From the IMG/VR virus record IMGVR_UViG_3300044971_003665, positions 120,017 to 184,016 of that record: DNA of 64,000 nucleotides; one strand, written 5' to 3'. Made by a program: the position numbers and the translations under genes. This DNA is from a virus. Every line of letters starts with the position of its first letter. Position 1 is the stretch's first letter. This document shows, in pieces, positions 2 through 61,489 of this stretch. The notes beneath the pieces are model-generated. The model was not told the DNA's origin and searched no databases. It saw only the letters and a list, made by a program, of their open reading frames with translations.

Positions 2-1270
2 GACGTGCCGCACGTCCAGATCATCCATCCGACGGGGAAGATTGATCCGAAGTATCTGGAGTTTCCGATGGAAAAGATGGCGAAGACTTTCCGGCTGTCC
101 GGCGACAAGCTGCAGGGCGTGGGGCTGCGGAAGAACTGGCACGCGATCCTCAAGGAGCTGCAAGCTTCGGGCCTGGCCGTGAATGACGCCCACACCGGGG
201 ATGTGCACGCATCGGTGGAGGACAAGCACGCTGATGTCGCACTGGAGAAATTGCGCGCCTACCTCGTCGCGCAGGGGCTGGAACATCCCGAGATCGAGCC
301 AGAGGAGGATGAGCCGCTGCATCGGGTGGAGATGGTGGATGATGACGTCATGACGTTCAACACCCGGCAGGGCTTCATCAGGAATTTCGACAAGACGCCT
401 GACGATCGTCGGAAGTGGGTGGCGGATCGGTTCAACCTGACCCATCGGGATAACGCGCTGCACGGCAATGTGACGGCGCGCGCCCTTCGGCAATTGATGG
501 GTGAGGTGCCCATTTACGAGGACCAGCTTGCCAATCCGCAGGATTATGGCCCGACTGCGTTTGCGAAGGCGGCATCGACCTACGTCCCGATCGGTGTCCC
601 GAAGCCGATGCCGAAAGCGCCGATGAAGTCGCCCATGGCGCATCACCGCTACCTGGCGGACGACGACGAGCACGAGAAGTATGCACCGGTGGGCATCGAC
701 GGCCTGCTGGCTGCCACCGAGAAGCTGCTGGCCGTGAACCGCGGCCTGGCTGAGACGGACGACCGCGACAGCCTGCCGAACGACCGCGTCCACACGGTGG
801 ACCGCCTGATGGCCGAGCGCATCAAGCTCGACCACGGACATGCCCTGCGCGCGATGATGGGACGGCTGAGCCGCATGCGCACCCTGGACCCTGTGGGCCC
901 GGACGCGTTCGGCGGATACACGATGGGCTACCTCAAGTCCAATCCGCTGGTCACAGCGCTGGAGGAGATCAACCCGATGCACATCCTCGAGCAGAAGCGT
1001 CGCATCACCAAGATGGGACCCGGCGGCATCGGCGACCCGAATGCCATCACGGACGACATGACGGCAGTCAGCGCCACGCAGTTCGGCTTCGTGGATCCGA
1101 TCGCGGGGCCGGAGTCTGAAAAAGCCGGCATCGACGTCCGACTGGCGCACGGCGCACGTGTCGGATCTGACGGTCGAATTTATCAGTTGCTCGTCAACCG
1201 GCGCACGGGTAAGAAGGAGTGGGTCAGCCCCAGCAACCTGCGGGGGAAGACCCTCAAACTACCCGACTAA
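2..1270 (+). CDS. RNA polymerase beta subunit, N-terminal fragment (5' partial)
   Basis: This is a phage-encoded piece of the RNA polymerase beta subunit. From the GTG at position 5 it reads 421 residues. Residues 262-291 resemble the beta segment that precedes the fork region, and residues 323-342 (around KRRITKMGPGG) match the conserved KRRISALGPGG block of beta. The next stretch (ATQFGFVDPIAGPES) corresponds to the HPTHYGRVCPIETPEG block, although the catalytic-cleft residues are divergent. The protein stops at about residue 600 of the E. coli subunit, and the rest of beta is encoded at 14281. The first ~220 residues are not recognisable. The frame is open to the window edge, so the gene may begin upstream; GTG at 5 is only a possible start. 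Identification is by conserved blocks, not by a search. Confidence 0.82.
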   Translation, partial: DVPHVQIIHPTGKIDPKYLEFPMEKMAKTFRLSGDKLQGVGLRKNWHAILKELQASGLAVNDAHTGDVHASVEDKHADVALEKLRAYLVAQGLEHPEIEPEEDEPLHRVEMVDDDVMTFNTRQGFIRNFDKTPDDRRKWVADRFNLTHRDNALHGNVTARALRQLMGEVPIYEDQLANPQDYGPTAFAKAASTYVPIGVPKPMPKAPMKSPMAHHRYLADDDEHEKYAPVGIDGLLAATEKLLAVNRGLAETDDRDSLPNDRVHTVDRLMAERIKLDHGHALRAMMGRLSRMRTLDPVGPDAFGGYTMGYLKSNPLVTALEEINPMHILEQKRRITKMGPGGIGDPNAITDDMTAVSATQFGFVDPIAGPESEKAGIDVRLAHGARVGSDGRIYQLLVNRRTGKKEWVSPSNLRGKTLKLPD

Positions 1271-1274
1271 TTCC

Positions 1275-1457
1275 ATGAGCCAATCCCAACCCACACAAGA
1301 GCAGATCCGCAACGCCCGCCACCAAGGTTACGGCAACAGCACAGCGATCATTGCGGAGCCCCGCCGCAGCGCGCTGAATGCGAGTTATGTGAAGCAGGAC
1401 ACGCGGCGCGAGCGCAACGTGTCCGGATTCTTCAAGACTATCATGGGCTCGAAGTAA
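1275..1457 (+). CDS. Small hypothetical protein, 60 aa
   Basis: A hydrophilic, basic 60-residue protein rich in Gln, Asn and Arg, with no Cys and no membrane segment. It starts 4 bases after the beta fragment stops, and its own stop codon abuts the next ATG, so the three genes are probably co-transcribed. I do not recognise the family. It is called because the spacing is typical of this genome and the start is preceded by A/T/C-rich sequence. Confidence 0.6.
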   Translation: MSQSQPTQEQIRNARHQGYGNSTAIIAEPRRSALNASYVKQDTRRERNVSGFFKTIMGSK

Positions 1458-14280: not shown

Positions 14281-16194
14281 ATGCACGTCGTACGCAACAA
14301 CCGCCTCGAAGAGGTGCCGGATGACGATCCGGATGTCGATTACGAGCTGTCCTCGCCCTCGCAGCAGTTTGGGTCACACACCAACATGATTCCGCTGGCG
14401 GGAGCAGTGCAAGCGCCGCGGCTGTTCTACGGCGCGCGGTTCGCGAACCAGGCGCTGGCGATCGACAAGGGCGAAGCTCCGCTGATCCAGAACTTGGACA
14501 CGTCCGACCCCGAAGGGCGCAGCTTTGACGAAATCGTCGGCGAGAACATGGGCGCCGTCCGCGCCAAGCGTGCCGGTCGCGTCATCAGCGTCACGCCGGA
14601 CTACATCCGCGTCTCCTACGATGACGGCGAGACGGCGGACGTCGACCTGTACAACGAACAATTTTTCAACCAGAAATCGGGCATAACCTCCCGCGCACTG
14701 CTCAAGAAAGGTGACACCTTCAAACCCGGGCAGATGATGGCAGCATCGTCCTACACGGACGACAACGGCGTGCAAAACATGGGGCTGAACGCCCGCATCG
14801 CTCTGGTGCCATTCAAGGGCTTCGGAATGGACGACGCCATGCCTGTCAGCGAGTCGTTCGCCAAGCGCCTGTCCGCCGTCCAATACAAGGTGATGCACCA
14901 GGACCGCTCGGACAATCTGAAGACAGGTCTCAGCCACTACCGCGCCCTCTTCCCGAACCGCTTCACCAAGGAGAAGCTGGAAAATTTTGACGAACACGGG
15001 CTGGTGCGACCTGGCACCGTGCTGGAGTCTGGCGACCCCGTCATGCTCGCGACGATGCCTCGCACGCTGTCGTCAGACGGCGCAAACATCGGGCGCCTCA
15101 GCAAGGCGCTGAGGCAGCAGCGCCGCGACGCCGCTCAGGTGTGGCACGGACAGCAGCCGGCCCAGGTCATCGCCGCGCGCGCGACCAAGAACGGCTACAA
15201 GGTGGTGCTGAAATTCCTGAAGCCGACGGAAGTCGGAGACAAGATCGTGCTGCGGCAGGGCGCCAAGGCGACCGTCTCGAAGATCATTCCCGACGACCAG
15301 ATGCCGCGGACGGAGGACGGACAGCCGCTGGATGCGCTGCTCAATCCGCTGTCCCTGGTCTCCCGGGCGAACCCGGCGTCACAGCACGAGCTGCGGCTCG
15401 GCAAGGTCGCCAAGAAGCTGGGGCACGCGCTGAAGCTGCCCAGCTACCTGCCGAAGGGACAAAACTGGAACGACTACATCGACCAGTTGGAACGCGAGAA
15501 TGGCGTGCAGTCACAGGAGATGGTCTACGATCCGGAAGAAGGCCGGACGCTGGATGCGCCGGTGACGGTGGGCTACGGTTTCGTCCACAAGCTCCACCAC
15601 ACGTCGGAAGGCAAGATCAGCGCCCGCGGCACGGGCAGCTACGACCAGAATCAGCAGCCGACGCGCGGCGGTGGCGAATTCGCACAGGCCAAACGCTTCT
15701 CGGGTCTCGAGAATTTTGCAACACTGTCCAGCGGGGCCTACTCGCTGATGCGGGAGAATGCCACAATCCGCGGGCAGAAGAATCACGACTTCTGGATGGC
15801 ACTGCGCACGGACAAGACGCTACCAAAGATCGGCGAGCCGTTTGTCTGGCACAAGTTCCGCGCGCTGCTGGCGGGCGCCGGCATCAACACGCGCAACTCC
15901 GGCAAGGGCAAGTATCGCCTCGCGCCATTCACGGACGGCGACCTGGACGAGCGCGATCCGATCGACGTCGAAAACGGCGAGATGGTAAATCTTCGCAACC
16001 TGACACCGATCCCCGGTGGCCTTTTCGACAATCGGCTGCTGAATGGAGAGCGGTGGGGCCGCATTCGTCTGCCGCGGCCCATCCTCAATCCAGCGATGGA
16101 AGACGCCGCGCGCACGATGATGGGACTGACGAAGCAGCAGCTCGAGGACGTCCTCGCTGGGCGTGTGCCGCTGGCGGATGTCATGCAGAAATAG
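14281..16194 (+). CDS. RNA polymerase beta C-terminal part fused to start of beta prime
   Basis: This 637-residue protein continues beta where the 2-1270 gene stops. Residues 20-60 match the VDYxxVSPxQ...ALIPFLEHDDANRALMG region. ARIALVPFKGFGMDDA (171-186) matches the AFMPWxGYNFEDA block. VGDKIVLRQGAKATVSKI (318-335) matches GDKMAGRHGNKGVISKI with both catalytic-site lysines, and NPLSLVSRANP (355-365) and the HHTSEGKISARGTGSY...GG block (439-465) match the beta C-terminal clamp. Without a stop, residues 573-637 continue into the beta prime N terminus (GGLFDNRLLNGERWGRIRLPRP), lacking the four-Cys zinc-binding domain. The start lies 3 bases after the GNAT-fusion gene. The remaining beta prime is at 58282 and, presumably, outside the window. 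Confidence 0.9.
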   Translation: MHVVRNNRLEEVPDDDPDVDYELSSPSQQFGSHTNMIPLAGAVQAPRLFYGARFANQALAIDKGEAPLIQNLDTSDPEGRSFDEIVGENMGAVRAKRAGRVISVTPDYIRVSYDDGETADVDLYNEQFFNQKSGITSRALLKKGDTFKPGQMMAASSYTDDNGVQNMGLNARIALVPFKGFGMDDAMPVSESFAKRLSAVQYKVMHQDRSDNLKTGLSHYRALFPNRFTKEKLENFDEHGLVRPGTVLESGDPVMLATMPRTLSSDGANIGRLSKALRQQRRDAAQVWHGQQPAQVIAARATKNGYKVVLKFLKPTEVGDKIVLRQGAKATVSKIIPDDQMPRTEDGQPLDALLNPLSLVSRANPASQHELRLGKVAKKLGHALKLPSYLPKGQNWNDYIDQLERENGVQSQEMVYDPEEGRTLDAPVTVGYGFVHKLHHTSEGKISARGTGSYDQNQQPTRGGGEFAQAKRFSGLENFATLSSGAYSLMRENATIRGQKNHDFWMALRTDKTLPKIGEPFVWHKFRALLAGAGINTRNSGKGKYRLAPFTDGDLDERDPIDVENGEMVNLRNLTPIPGGLFDNRLLNGERWGRIRLPRPILNPAMEDAARTMMGLTKQQLEDVLAGRVPLADVMQK

Positions 16195-23062: not shown

Positions 23063-23910
23063 GAAATCCTGCAATCGAAATCCTATCCAAGCCAAAGTCC
23101 AAATTCACCCTGCTGGTCGTCGGTGGCGGCATGATGGGTTGCGACGTCCGCAAACCCATCGTGTCCAAAGGCTGGCTTGAGACGTCGCAAGGCGAGAAGC
23201 TGTGCTACTCCGAGCCGCGCGGTCGCAAGATCTACGGACTGGAGGGAGTCCTGAGGGCCGGCGCCATCGTGCTGCGCGGCCACGAGGAGTCGCGCCCCAT
23301 CTTCGAGTCCCACGCGCGCGCCGAAGGCGGATGCCTGTCGTTCGTCATGGACGGCAAGGGCGGACGCTTCATCGACTACAACGCGGAGGGCACCGATGCG
23401 CTGATCGACTACCTCAAGAAGCACTTGGTGCTGCATACGCTGGGGTGGAGTCACACCCTGACGCTGCTCGTCGAGAAGAAGGACAGCGTCAGGGACACAC
23501 GGGCGATTGCCGACCACGACTTCAAGAAGAAGCTGCTGACGGCACTGGGGCAGCCCGTGGAGATGGAGCGCGCGGCGCCGAAAGAACCGGAGCGCAAGTC
23601 GCTGCTGACCGATGCGATGAAGGCGAAGCTGCGTGCGGCCGTCGGCAAGGAGCCGCAGCCGATCTACAAGATCTTCCTGCCGGAGGGCTCGGCGACGTGG
23701 CTGCTGTGCAGCATCGAGGACGACGGAGACACGTTGTGGGCTGTCTGCGACCTCGGCCTCGGATGCGTCGAGTATGGCACGGTGAGCCTCAAGGAACTGG
23801 AGACCATCCGTGGTCCCCGGTTTAAGCTGCCGGCCGAGCGCGACCTGCACTTCGACGGGCGCGACTTCAACATGGAGGAGGCGCTCGGGAAGATGTCGCT
23901 GATGGCGTGA
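23059..23910 (+). CDS. DUF2958-domain protein, 283 aa
   Basis: The C-terminal ~80 residues fit the DUF2958 pattern: IYKIFLPEGSATWLL, then DDGDTLWAVCDLGLGCVEYG, then VSLKELETIRG and a closing RDLHF. DUF2958 occurs widely in plasmids, integrative elements and phages, usually as a ~110-residue protein of unknown function. Here it is preceded by about 190 residues of unrelated sequence with a Gly-rich start (LLVVGGGMMGCD), so the protein is a fusion. It overlaps both neighbours by 4 bases. Function unknown. Confidence 0.7.
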   Translation: MRNPAIEILSKPKSKFTLLVVGGGMMGCDVRKPIVSKGWLETSQGEKLCYSEPRGRKIYGLEGVLRAGAIVLRGHEESRPIFESHARAEGGCLSFVMDGKGGRFIDYNAEGTDALIDYLKKHLVLHTLGWSHTLTLLVEKKDSVRDTRAIADHDFKKKLLTALGQPVEMERAAPKEPERKSLLTDAMKAKLRAAVGKEPQPIYKIFLPEGSATWLLCSIEDDGDTLWAVCDLGLGCVEYGTVSLKELETIRGPRFKLPAERDLHFDGRDFNMEEALGKMSLMA

Positions 23911-57766: not shown

Positions 57767-58212
57767 AAAACAACCCTGACCCTACGGAAAGCTGGCACAT
57801 GATCGCCAGGACCAAAGCCGGCGACCCAGTCTGGCGCATGTATGGCAAGGGCCGCCCGTTCGTCCTAGTGGACGGCGGCGTGCGCGAACTGCGATGGTGG
57901 TGGCGGTGGCCTTGGTGGCCGTCCACGCTGCGTCGTCTGCCTGAGCCGCACCTGACCTACGACCAGGTGGCCACCGCGGTGGAACTGTCGACCACTGTGC
58001 TGAAGGCGCTGAAATGCGACGGCCCGATCTTCCTGTCCCGTGGATTCCTGAAGGGATGCGACAGCAAAATCATCACCACGCGCGCGAATGCAGTGCCGCT
58101 GTTCCACTGGATGGAGGGCTGCGGCATCGTACTGACACGTCGCGAACTGCAGGACGGACGGACCGAGATCGACCTGGACGTGAAAGCGACGGCGAAGAAC
58201 AACGTCCGATGA
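57763..58212 (+). CDS. Hypothetical protein, 149 aa
   Basis: It has a striking Trp/Arg run (LRWWWRWPWWPSTLRR) near residue 45, then a helical and a strand-rich section. The Trp run could be a membrane-interface segment. Overlaps the ACP-like gene by 4 bases and is the last gene before the polymerase gene. Not recognised. Confidence 0.55.
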   Translation: MKNNPDPTESWHMIARTKAGDPVWRMYGKGRPFVLVDGGVRELRWWWRWPWWPSTLRRLPEPHLTYDQVATAVELSTTVLKALKCDGPIFLSRGFLKGCDSKIITTRANAVPLFHWMEGCGIVLTRRELQDGRTEIDLDVKATAKNNVR

Positions 58213-58245
58213 CGGCCGGCGCGCGACGGGTGAGTGACATTTCGC

Positions 58246-58274
58246 GCGACACGACGCCGACAGCAGGCTAGGCT
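58246..58274 (+). promoter_or_regulatory. Sigma70-like promoter for a leaderless mRNA (polymerase gene)
   Basis: GCGACA at 58246-58251 and TAGGCT at 58269-58274 have a 17-base spacer, and the expected start is one base before the ATG at 58282. The boxes match the consensus at four of six positions each. The architecture matches the promoters at 9339, 12147 and 16196. Confidence 0.4.
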
Positions 58275-58281
58275 CCTGCGC

Positions 58282-61200
58282 ATGACCACGCCTCCGACCA
58301 CAGGCCCTGAAGCGATCCTCGCAGCGCTGCAGGGGATGAACATCGACGACATCGAAAAGGAACAGCGCGACATCATCCGCGCCGGCAGCAAGACCAAGCG
58401 CAGCCGCGCGGTGCGGATGCTGAACATCCTGCACGGGCTGCGCGTCAACGAGCTGAGGCCGGAGCACATGATGCTCACATCCGTGCCGGTCATCCCGCCG
58501 AAGTTCCGCCCGTTCAGCGTTACCGGCGACACGTTCCTCCCGGGCGACTCGAACGAGGTCTACCGGGACCTGCTCGAGTATCGCCGGCTCTACAGCGACA
58601 CGGAGAAGGCGATGGGGCGCGACGGCGCGGCGGAGGCCTACATGGACATGACGCGCGCGGCCAAGGCTGCCTACGGCTACGGCGAGAGCCCGAACCCCAA
58701 GACCCGCGCGCGCGAGGTGAAGGGGTTCTTCAAGATGGTCACCGGTACGAATCCAAAAACGAGTTTTTACGCCTCCAAGATGCTGTCCAAGCCGGTCGAC
58801 ACGGTCGGCCGCGGCGTCATCGTGCCTGACGCCGACCTGGGCATGGACGACGTCGGCATCCCCGAGGAGATGGCGTGGAAGCTCTACAGCAACTACGTGC
58901 AGCGGCGGCTGGTGCGTTCCGGCATGGCGCCGGCCGCCGCGCTCAAGCATCTGACTGACCGCTCGCCGATGGCGCGCAAGGCGCTGGACTACGAGATGGG
59001 CACGGAGACCGACAAGGAGGGGCATGAGACGCCGCGCCGGCCCGTCGTGATCACCAGGTCCCCGGCATGGCACCGGACGAACGTGATCGGACAGCGTCCC
59101 CGGATTGTTCCAGGTGACGCGATTCGGGTGAACACCTTCATCACGGAGGGAATGAACGCCGATTTTGACGGGGACGAAGTTCATAATCAGGTAGTTACAG
59201 CGATTCAGCGCGACCTAATTTCATCCTTGCCGTCATATTTGGTTGACCGCTTTCAGATTCTCGGCAATGCTGCTGATATGTATAACAAACTTCAACTACC
59301 CTACATTGATCCGACCACGCACGAAGTGGCTGTGATCGACCTCGAGGACTTCCCGCGCAGCGAGGAACTCATCGGAGAGAAGCAGGGCACCAACAGCTAT
59401 ATCAGGTTCTTCAAAGCCCTACCGGGAACCAAGGTCATCGCATTCGACGAGAATACTGGGGCGTTGGTATGGGCCGACGTCGCCGGGTGGAGCGAGCACA
59501 CTGCGCCTCCGATCGAGGTTGTCACATTGTCCAACCGTCGGCAGACCTTCACCGATGACGACCCGCGGGCCGTCTACGGCATGGACCCGACGACGGGCGA
59601 GATGGGACGCTGGACGCCGACAGATGCGCTGGAGAAAAAGGTTGCGGTTCCGTGCGGGAGAAACCTACGGGAACTGGTAGCAACACTGGAACCGATCGCG
59701 GAAGTGAAGATGGGCAGCGTCCAGATCGTCCTGGACTTCGACGCGGGCTGGTTCATGGGCGCGATGTGCGGCGACGGATGGTGGGATAAGAAAGACTACG
59801 ATTTCTACGCTACGCGCGGCTGGAAGGGGCGTCGGAATCTTCATCTCGCCGATCTCAAGGAGGACAACGCAAAGCGTCTGAAATCCTTCATCGAACAGCA
59901 TCTGGATTCTGCGGGAACGCTCTACTATCACCGCCACGAGCAGAATAAGGAAGAGGGAGACGCTCGATACGGCGATACGATCAGGCACAGCTTCAACTTC
60001 GCCGGAAGTGAGCACGTGGCTGCGTTTCTGCAGTTACACCTGGGCGGCGAGCGCGACGAAAAAACATCCGGAGCAGCGAACAAGCGCGTCCCCGGATTCC
60101 TGTTCCGCGCGCCGGAGGAGTTTCGACGTGGGTTCCTGACTGGCATGGTGGACACCGACGGATCCATCAGTGTCGGGAATGGCGGCGAGGAAGGGAAGGG
60201 GAACGTGTTTAACATCGGATCCACTTCGCTGAGACTCATTCGTGAACTGCAAGCACTCTGCATGACGCTGGACGTGCGTGCTTCGGTTACGTGGTCGAAG
60301 GAAACCAGCGGCGGGAATGAATGCTGGGTGCTCGCAATGTCCACGTGGGACTGCAAGCGGCTAGACCTCTTCGCCGGGCTGGCCACCGAGCACAAACGTG
60401 AGAACTTCCTCAAAGCGGAAGTAGTCCGCGAGAACACAGCGGCGGTGTTCAACAAGGCGGTCATACCCCGCAACGTCTTCGACGTCGTCCAGCACGACCT
60501 CGTCAATCCCAAGATCACCGCCGAAGACCGCACAACTGACAGCCCGGAGCTGGACTGGAAGAAGCACCAGCAGAATATGGTCGTGCAGTGGGCCAAGGGG
60601 AAACACGAAGGTGTCATCTCGCGTCCGAGCGCGCGCGCAGTCTTGGATCATCTGCGCGAGATGCTCGCCAAGCGTGTCGCGGCTCGCGACGCTGCGCTGA
60701 CCTTGCTGCGTTCCGAGGTGGTGGAGCTGACATCCGCGAATGCGAAGATTCTACGGGCCGGCGTTTACGCGACCGCTGCGCCGTTCTCCGCTGACAACGA
60801 CAAGGGGTCTGAGACTTACAAGTTGGCATCCATCATCAAAACCGCGGCGCACGCCGGCGACGCGCTGGGTGGACTCCGCCGACGCAGACTGCTGGAACGC
60901 CTGGAGGCTCTCCCGGTGTATCGTGGCGCGTTGGACTCGGACCTGCTCAAGACTTGGGTTCGCGACATCCTGGACCAGGAGCACATCACCTGGGCCACTG
61001 TCGTCGAAGTCGACAAGACAGGCATCCGCGAAACCGGCTACGACCTCACCGTCCCAGGCTACGAAACCTTCATGTCGGCCGACGGCGTGATCCTCTCAAA
61101 CACCATGAGCGTGCACGTGCCGACCACCGACGAGGCGGTCAGGGACGTGCGCGAGAAGATGATGGCTTCGAAGATGCTCTGGTCCATCAAGGACCGCAGC

Positions 61201-61368
61201 AAGACGATGGCAAATCCCAAGCATGAGACCTTGCTCGGGCTGAACATGTTGAGTCCCGCCAATCGCCCACAAAAGAAGCACAAGTTCACATCGGACGACG
61301 ACGTGATGGCTGCTATCGAACGGGGAGAAGTGGACCTTTACGACGACGTAGAGATTTCGCCTTCATAG
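58282..61368 (+). CDS. RNA polymerase beta prime, catalytic-loop segment, interrupted by an intein
   Basis: From ATG 58282 the protein has 1028 residues. Residues 1-80 match beta prime around the zipper and rudder (KRSRAVRMLNILHGLRV, MMLTSVPVIPPKFRP). GRGVIVPDADLGMDDVGIP corresponds to the switch region near the DYSGRSVI block, and NADFDGD (292-298) is the absolutely conserved Mg-binding catalytic loop. Directly after it a 642-residue intein (299-940) is inserted. The host protein then resumes at Thr941 (TMSVHVP) and continues for ~90 residues. The bridge helix and trigger loop are absent, so the rest of beta prime must be encoded elsewhere. A GTG at 58234 would add 16 residues; the promoter favours 58282. 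Confidence 0.88.
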   Translation: MTTPPTTGPEAILAALQGMNIDDIEKEQRDIIRAGSKTKRSRAVRMLNILHGLRVNELRPEHMMLTSVPVIPPKFRPFSVTGDTFLPGDSNEVYRDLLEYRRLYSDTEKAMGRDGAAEAYMDMTRAAKAAYGYGESPNPKTRAREVKGFFKMVTGTNPKTSFYASKMLSKPVDTVGRGVIVPDADLGMDDVGIPEEMAWKLYSNYVQRRLVRSGMAPAAALKHLTDRSPMARKALDYEMGTETDKEGHETPRRPVVITRSPAWHRTNVIGQRPRIVPGDAIRVNTFITEGMNADFDGDEVHNQVVTAIQRDLISSLPSYLVDRFQILGNAADMYNKLQLPYIDPTTHEVAVIDLEDFPRSEELIGEKQGTNSYIRFFKALPGTKVIAFDENTGALVWADVAGWSEHTAPPIEVVTLSNRRQTFTDDDPRAVYGMDPTTGEMGRWTPTDALEKKVAVPCGRNLRELVATLEPIAEVKMGSVQIVLDFDAGWFMGAMCGDGWWDKKDYDFYATRGWKGRRNLHLADLKEDNAKRLKSFIEQHLDSAGTLYYHRHEQNKEEGDARYGDTIRHSFNFAGSEHVAAFLQLHLGGERDEKTSGAANKRVPGFLFRAPEEFRRGFLTGMVDTDGSISVGNGGEEGKGNVFNIGSTSLRLIRELQALCMTLDVRASVTWSKETSGGNECWVLAMSTWDCKRLDLFAGLATEHKRENFLKAEVVRENTAAVFNKAVIPRNVFDVVQHDLVNPKITAEDRTTDSPELDWKKHQQNMVVQWAKGKHEGVISRPSARAVLDHLREMLAKRVAARDAALTLLRSEVVELTSANAKILRAGVYATAAPFSADNDKGSETYKLASIIKTAAHAGDALGGLRRRRLLERLEALPVYRGALDSDLLKTWVRDILDQEHITWATVVEVDKTGIRETGYDLTVPGYETFMSADGVILSNTMSVHVPTTDEAVRDVREKMMASKMLWSIKDRSKTMANPKHETLLGLNMLSPANRPQKKHKFTSDDDVMAAIERGEVDLYDDVEISPS
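59176..61101 (+). mobile_element. Intein with LAGLIDADG endonuclease in the beta prime active-site loop
   Basis: The 642-residue insertion splits NADFDGD from TMSVHVP. Its C terminus has intein block F/G features (GYDLTVPGYETFMSADG, then VILSN) with the terminal Asn and Thr as the +1 nucleophile; the penultimate residue is Ser rather than His. WFMGAMCGDGWW (~490-501) and GFLTGMVDTDGSISV (~617-631) are the two LAGLIDADG motifs. Two points are unusual: the first residue is Glu, not Cys or Ser, and the block-A-like PGTKVIAFDENTG begins only ~85 residues in. Block B reads TDDDPRAV instead of TxxH. Splicing by the ordinary class 1 mechanism is therefore doubtful. Confidence 0.8.
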
Positions 61369-61489
61369 CGTCGGCGCCTTTCTGGGCGTTGATTCTGCGC
61401 TTATCTGCGTGCGCTCAAAATGGAGTATCCTGACGGGGAGTGGTGAGACGCAAGCATCGAGGGAGGCAAATAAATTCACACGAAACATT
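61369..61489 (+). other. Gap after the polymerase gene
   Basis: This 121-base gap contains no convincing gene. TTGATT followed by TATCCT occurs, but the spacing is not standard. A GGGAGG lies about 30 bases before the next ATG. No terminator hairpin is obvious. Confidence 0.3.

Follow-up and report, generated by a model that had tools for sequence, protein, structure and literature searches.

The stretch analysed here, called the window, is the last 64 kb (64,000 nucleotides) of the 184-kb IMG/VR virus record IMGVR_UViG_3300044971_003665, which is possibly incomplete. On its plus strand, an open reading frame (ORF) running from an ATG at 58282 to 61368 encodes part of the beta' subunit of a multisubunit phage RNA polymerase (RNAP). 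The start was picked via the aligned ATG of L002, the closest relative found. The gene is interrupted by an insert of 642 codons that is open and in frame between the catalytic loop NADFDGD and T-MSVHVP. When compared with cellular beta', the homology ends at about residue 316 of the longer ORF and restarts exactly at T-MSVHVP. Both boundaries of the insert are fixed by 74 intein-free phage alleles, in which the site is uninterrupted and NADFDGD is followed directly by a sequence of the type (A/T/Q)M..HVP. The features of the gene are the following.

58282–59175, plus strand: N-extein, the N-terminal part of RNAP beta', 298 amino acids (Pfam RNA_pol_Rpb1_2, 8e-19; NCBIfam rpoC; PDB beta' chains)
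59155–59175, plus strand: catalytic loop NADFDGD, whose last Asp is intein position -1 (sequence; beta' alignment)
59176–61101, plus strand: intein with LAGLIDADG endonuclease, 642 amino acids, E1 to N642 (sequence; AlphaFold2 model against PDB inteins)
59176–59211, plus strand: block A strand without nucleophile, EVHNQVVTAIQR, aligning with SMIGDIWLS (L115) and SVLGEIFYL (L102) of class-1 alleles
59212–59325, plus strand: variable AT-rich linker, the split point in L084/L162, L157/L167 and L166 (family comparison)
59278–59280, plus strand: ATG (Met35) at the aligned place where relatives have an internal start codon, with a weak Shine-Dalgarno sequence (-1.7 kcal/mol)
59341–59460, plus strand: LEDFP ... 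GTKVIAFDENTG, the normal stretch between blocks A and B (alignment with the class-1 allele L004)
59551–59580, plus strand: block B, TDDDPRAVYG, with Asp instead of His B:10 (aligned with TGDHS of L004)
59743–59784, plus strand: first LAGLIDADG motif, GAMCGDGWW (family comparison)
60133–60171, plus strand: second LAGLIDADG motif, FLTGMVDTDGSIS (Pfam LAGLIDADG_3, 8e-7)
61036–61071, plus strand: block F, GYDLTVPGYETF, with Asp at F:4 and Glu at the His F:13 position (family comparison)
61087–61101, plus strand: block G, VILSN, with Ser at G:6 and Asn at G:7 (24/24 members; TIGR01443)
61102–61368, plus strand: C-extein starting with Thr+1, 88 amino acids and stop (beta' homology, TMSVHVPTTDEA; intein-free alleles)

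The insert is an intein that contains a homing endonuclease and occupies the active-site loop of the beta' fragment. It lies in frame within a conserved motif, homologues lack it, and its removal restores the motif as found in the intein-free alleles. An AlphaFold2 model of the intein (pLDDT, the predicted local distance difference test score, 82) matched whole LAGLIDADG inteins in the PDB (7qss, 1e-14; 1dq3, 6e-13; also 2cw7) as well as intein-bearing proteins among viral structure predictions, so that a HINT fold and a LAGLIDADG domain are both present in the predicted structure. An earlier note, made from the letters alone, had placed the insert at exactly these coordinates, and this observation holds to the base. 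The Glu at position 1, the TDDDPRAV of block B, the two LAGLIDADG motifs and the VILSN followed by Thr are likewise as it described them. The LAGLIDADG_3 match lies above the Pfam cut-off, and the intein C-terminal model TIGR01443 scored 16.0 bits against a domain cut-off of 15.6. The numbering of Asn940 and Thr941 and the predicted spliced product of about 386 residues (298 + 88) also agree. The splicing motifs are unusual. With the boundaries so fixed, residue 1 stays Glu and no Cys or Ser appears there, and block B reads TDDDPRAVYG where inteins carry TxxH.

Viral contigs were scanned for relatives with protein and profile queries and with two motif patterns. The group found, referred to here as the DDD family, comprises 28 distinct fused members, the window included, and three split ones, all at the same beta' codon. 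Nearly all were found on contigs of viral metagenomes, and alleles that are related do not count as independent. One fused member, L049, lies on a prokaryote metagenome-assembled contig (Eisenbacteria) that is probably phage; it was the sole contig matched in scans of bacterial and archaeal genomes, and none of the INPHARED phages carried an intein of the family. Pairwise identity among full-length fused members is mostly 27–59%, the window and L002 being the closest pair at 75%.

The non-canonical features are conserved throughout. Residue 1 is neither Cys nor Ser in 29 of the 31 members and varies widely (Q 11, D 4, E 3, Y 3, C 2, K 2, F 2, A 2, L 2). All 27 tabulated fused members, L147 and two of the three splits have [TSA]DDD[PE]R[AG] as block B, the third split having DND. 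The consensus of block F is [YF]DLTVP..ETF, with YDITVP in L147 and DTF in the split L084 as exceptions; Asp is found at F:4 and Glu or Asp at the usual His F:13 position across the family. The terminus is LSN|T in 28/28 full-length members. Position 6 of the block A strand is hydrophobic in 30/30, and Asp(-1), which is set by the catalytic loop, occurs in every member. S106, T625, T631, S641 and D127/D129 vary little or not at all. When same-site class-1 alleles, whose rows have long branches, are included in a tree, the family forms one clade (support 100/99). Judged from this tree, the DDD family is monophyletic. It has lost the N-terminal nucleophile, and Asp has taken the place of His B:10, Glu that of His F:13 and Ser that of His G:6. 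It is widespread and apparently undescribed, as judged against open papers only. The note's suggestion of a new splicing variant is supported by this conservation over 31 members.

The class-1 alleles clarify what the first residues of the intein are. L004, L102 and L115 carry inteins at the same NADFDGD codon with Ser1, a block A of the form ...IGDI/LGEI... and a block B His (GDHS, NDHS, DNHS). They end in WD|T or YD|T, that is, in Asp after Trp or Tyr and not in Asn. No other close relatives of the L004 intein were found. Compared with these alleles, residues 1–10 of the window intein correspond to the block A strand but lack its nucleophile, and the strand ALPGTKVIAF lies between blocks A and B. 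The label 'block-A-like' had therefore been put on the wrong strand, and the supposed N-terminal extension of about 85 residues is better described as block A without a nucleophile, a variable linker and the normal A–B strands. Only the linker, roughly 30–45 residues, is added relative to the class-1 alleles. Since the N-terminal strand is common to the family and homologous to block A of the same-site class-1 alleles, a recombinant intein with a replaced N terminus, another of the note's proposals, is not supported. A host-polymerase origin of residues 299–382 was rejected as well, because the intein-free alleles lack these residues. In its codons, the linker is richer in AT than the synonymous usage of the gene itself (codons 1–20 low in 25/27, Wilcoxon 2.5e-6). 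The same synonymous bias extends over about the first 60 codons (59176–59300, and the same place in 26 relatives) and is strongest in the window, with z about -6. Such early codons would fit a region upstream of an internal start.

Where the linker ends, a conserved position resembling M/V/L-(T/S/A)-A-R is present in most relatives, usually with a Shine-Dalgarno sequence upstream. Its codon is ATG, GTG or TTG in 26/26 placeable members, and the non-ATG cases are GTG or TTG in 5/5. The position was picked partly by seeking such codons, so this count is weaker than the test of Shine-Dalgarno pairing, which is predicted at a mean of -7.2 kcal/mol versus -4.3 in synonymous shuffles (z -6.6, 0/300). 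The pairing is also stronger than at 218 other ATGs of the same inteins (p 8e-9). It is weak or absent in the window, L002, L009, L026 and L031, and the feature is therefore relaxed or lost in the window copy. Many relatives probably also make a separate product, consisting of C-intein, endonuclease and C-extein, from an internal ribosome start just behind the first strand.

Three relatives are split at this place. Their N-extein ORF ends 21, 25 or 54 residues into the intein (L157/L167, L166 and L084/L162), and the remainder is encoded by a second ORF with its own Shine-Dalgarno sequence and ATG. The paired contigs are identical over their overlap, and each pair is therefore counted as one case. 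The second gene is the sole source of the C-intein part, so that ligation in these relatives would be in trans. The tree implies that the element changed between fused and split form at least twice independently. Ribosomal frameshifting was rejected for all three: L157 has a gap of about 80 nucleotides with stops and its own promoter-like TTGACA-16-TATAGT, the second ORF of L166 is in the same frame after TAA, and L084 would require an unusual +1 shift. The promoter-like sequence in L157 (3310–3337) is a near-consensus sigma-70 promoter (11/12) inside the split intein, upstream of the gene for C-intein and endonuclease.

The intein is under purifying selection over its whole length, more strongly than the exteins. 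Between the window and L002, the ratio of non-synonymous to synonymous substitution rates (dN/dS) is 0.165 for residues 1–50, 0.11 for 51–180, 0.13 for the endonuclease and 0.10 for blocks F and G (overall 0.10–0.18) versus 0.26/0.25 for the exteins, with synonymous sites near saturation. In line with this selection, and with the interruption of the only catalytic-loop gene found in the record, the window intein probably splices.

How it might do so is suggested by the residues that are kept. It is fairly likely that the intein is splicing-competent through a class-2-like direct attack by Thr+1 without His B:10. In this route, Asp F:4 and the acidic DDD/Glu cluster would activate Thr+1 for a direct attack on the Asp(-1)-X1 peptide bond, with carboxylates (D127–D129, D623, E630) and R131 standing in for the histidines. 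Asn642 would then cyclise, and an O–N shift would restore NADFDGD-TMSVHVP. Thr+1 is present in every intein allele versus 14 of the 74 intein-free alleles (Ala 50, Gln 10); this is the pattern expected if Thr+1 is chemically required. It is possible, at somewhat less than even confidence, that the family represents a fourth mechanistic class of inteins. Such a class, found at one site in phage RNAP beta', would lack both a nucleophile at residue 1 and any His in blocks B, F or G. It would have the invariant carboxylates DDD, Asp F:4 and Glu F:13, Thr+1 as the sole N-junction nucleophile, and a conserved internal start that allows the element to work either fused or naturally split.

Several points weigh against this account. 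To our knowledge, there is no precedent for Thr attacking an amide directly when His B:10 is missing. Two members of the family have Cys1, the Fisher value for the Thr+1 bias (1e-14) is inflated by relatedness, and the window copy keeps the internal ATG but lacks a strong internal Shine-Dalgarno sequence. Moreover, class 2 inteins as known so far depend on His B:10 and have Cys+1 as the attacking residue (PMC4031507). The loss of His B:10 can, on the other hand, be compensated in some inteins (PMC6333167).

The alternative that survives best, although it is rather unlikely, is that the intein splices with a first nucleophile other than Thr+1. Candidates are an internal residue, such as Ser641, Thr625, Ser106 or a DDD carboxylate, which would act in two steps as in class 3, or the extein residue Asp(-1), which would attack its own carbonyl. 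The near-invariance of S106, T625, T631, S641 and D127/D129 would suit the former and the constant Asp(-1) the latter, the catalytic loop imposing this Asp in any case. However, F:4 is Asp and not the Cys of class 3, several of the candidates also occur in class-1 alleles or are structural, and Thr+1 is invariant.

Distinctly less probable is a loss of splicing in which only C-terminal cleavage by Asn cyclisation persists, the polymerase working or being regulated in two pieces split after the catalytic loop. The N-junction motifs are gone while the C-terminal ones are intact, the RNAP of this phage is already in several pieces, and the split relatives produce the two halves separately. Yet the N-terminal strand is conserved even in split tails of 21–25 residues, the linker frame stays open in fused members, and dN/dS is low at the N end. 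Asn cyclisation alone would not need a conserved Thr+1 either.

A degenerate insert that inactivates the gene, which the earlier note had considered as an element silencing the subunit, is very improbable. The missing canonical residues at position 1 and in block B would agree with a pseudogene, but the same features recur in 31 members, which together with the low dN/dS of the intein (below that of the exteins) led to the rejection of a single degenerate copy. The endonuclease motifs are intact, and the only NADFDGD gene found in the record is the interrupted one, the record being possibly incomplete. Removal as RNA, by a group I or II intron whose endonuclease ORF is fused to the downstream exon, is hardly credible: the order of N-extein, short tail, Shine-Dalgarno–ATG and endonuclease recalls phage intron ORFs, but Rfam 15 gave no intron match, and hence no conserved group I/II RNA structure, over 58200–61420, codons 1–50 are as free at synonymous sites as elsewhere while keeping their amino acids, and the C-terminal motif and fold are those of an intein.

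The RNAP genes around these inteins show further peculiarities. In the window phage, RNAP is split into several genes, with beta in three, the N-terminal part of beta' at 58282–61368 and its C-terminal part far away; the other pieces lie at window positions 686–1276 and 14332–16152 and at record positions 117652–118131 and 23228–23707. Deviant catalytic loops were seen in L026 (NMDFNGD, the second Asp changed to Asn), L044 (NADHDGD) and L004 (DYDGN before its class-1 intein). L003, L011, L013, L017, L018 and L020 encode fused beta–beta' proteins with more inteins elsewhere, most with Cys1 and ending N|S, and phage RNAP is therefore an intein hot spot. The cultured Salmonella phage Arash (L182, OQ632216) has a related RNAP gene, annotated as beta subunit; tblastn matches flank the insertion point within 1.1 kb, and no DDD family intein was found there.

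Located next to the Mg-binding Asp of RNA polymerase, the DDD family would make the activation of the N-terminal bond by HINT without a nucleophile directly testable. The split forms, with N-inteins down to 21 amino acids and no required Cys or Ser, could be put to use in protein ligation without cysteine. An intein may be able to express its endonuclease part independently of splicing, as the conserved internal start suggests.

Reviews recognise two routes to splicing without Cys/Ser1: in class 2, Cys+1 attacks directly, and in class 3 (WCT), an internal Cys at F:4 is used (PMC4031507, PMC7664689). Class 1 does not accommodate the window intein, which has Glu1 instead of Cys/Ser1 and TDDD instead of the usual, though not absolute, TxxH. 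Class 2, described as a single gene family (KlbA orthologues), has Ala1, Ser G:6 and Asp F:4 and requires His B:10 (PMC4031507). The DDD family resembles it in lacking Cys/Ser1, in Ser G:6 and Asp F:4 (both in 24/24 members) and in the presumed direct attack by the +1 residue. It differs in that any residue may stand at position 1 and in having Thr+1 instead of Cys+1, Asp at the B:10 position that KlbA needs for activity, the RNAP beta' site and split forms; the window copy itself has Glu1, Thr+1 and an RNAP beta' host gene. With class 3, the family shares a non-nucleophilic residue 1, the association with phages and the occurrence of split forms, of which one class 3 example is known (AceL NrdHF), split class 2 or 3 inteins having been unknown before 2020 (PMC7664689, PMC7891396). 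Assignment to class 3 was nevertheless rejected, as Cys F:4 is lacking; F:4 is Asp in 24/24, the WCT motif is absent, and block B has neither Trp nor His.

The class-1 inteins at the same site share the insertion codon, Thr+1, homologous strands and a LAGLIDADG-type domain with the DDD family, but have Ser1, the block B His, a C-terminal Asp and neither linker nor internal start. Inteins of the Tko CDC21-1 type retain the N-terminal nucleophile, unlike the DDD family. They lack the block B His as well, with compensation (cited in PMC6333167), and are a few archaeal orthologues. The window copy is fused in one gene and is thus not itself naturally split. Its three split relatives are reminiscent of atypical split inteins with a short N fragment, in which an N-intein of about 21–54 amino acids is followed by the rest in a second gene; the DDD splits differ from these in having no Cys/Ser1 and in a C fragment that retains the endonuclease.
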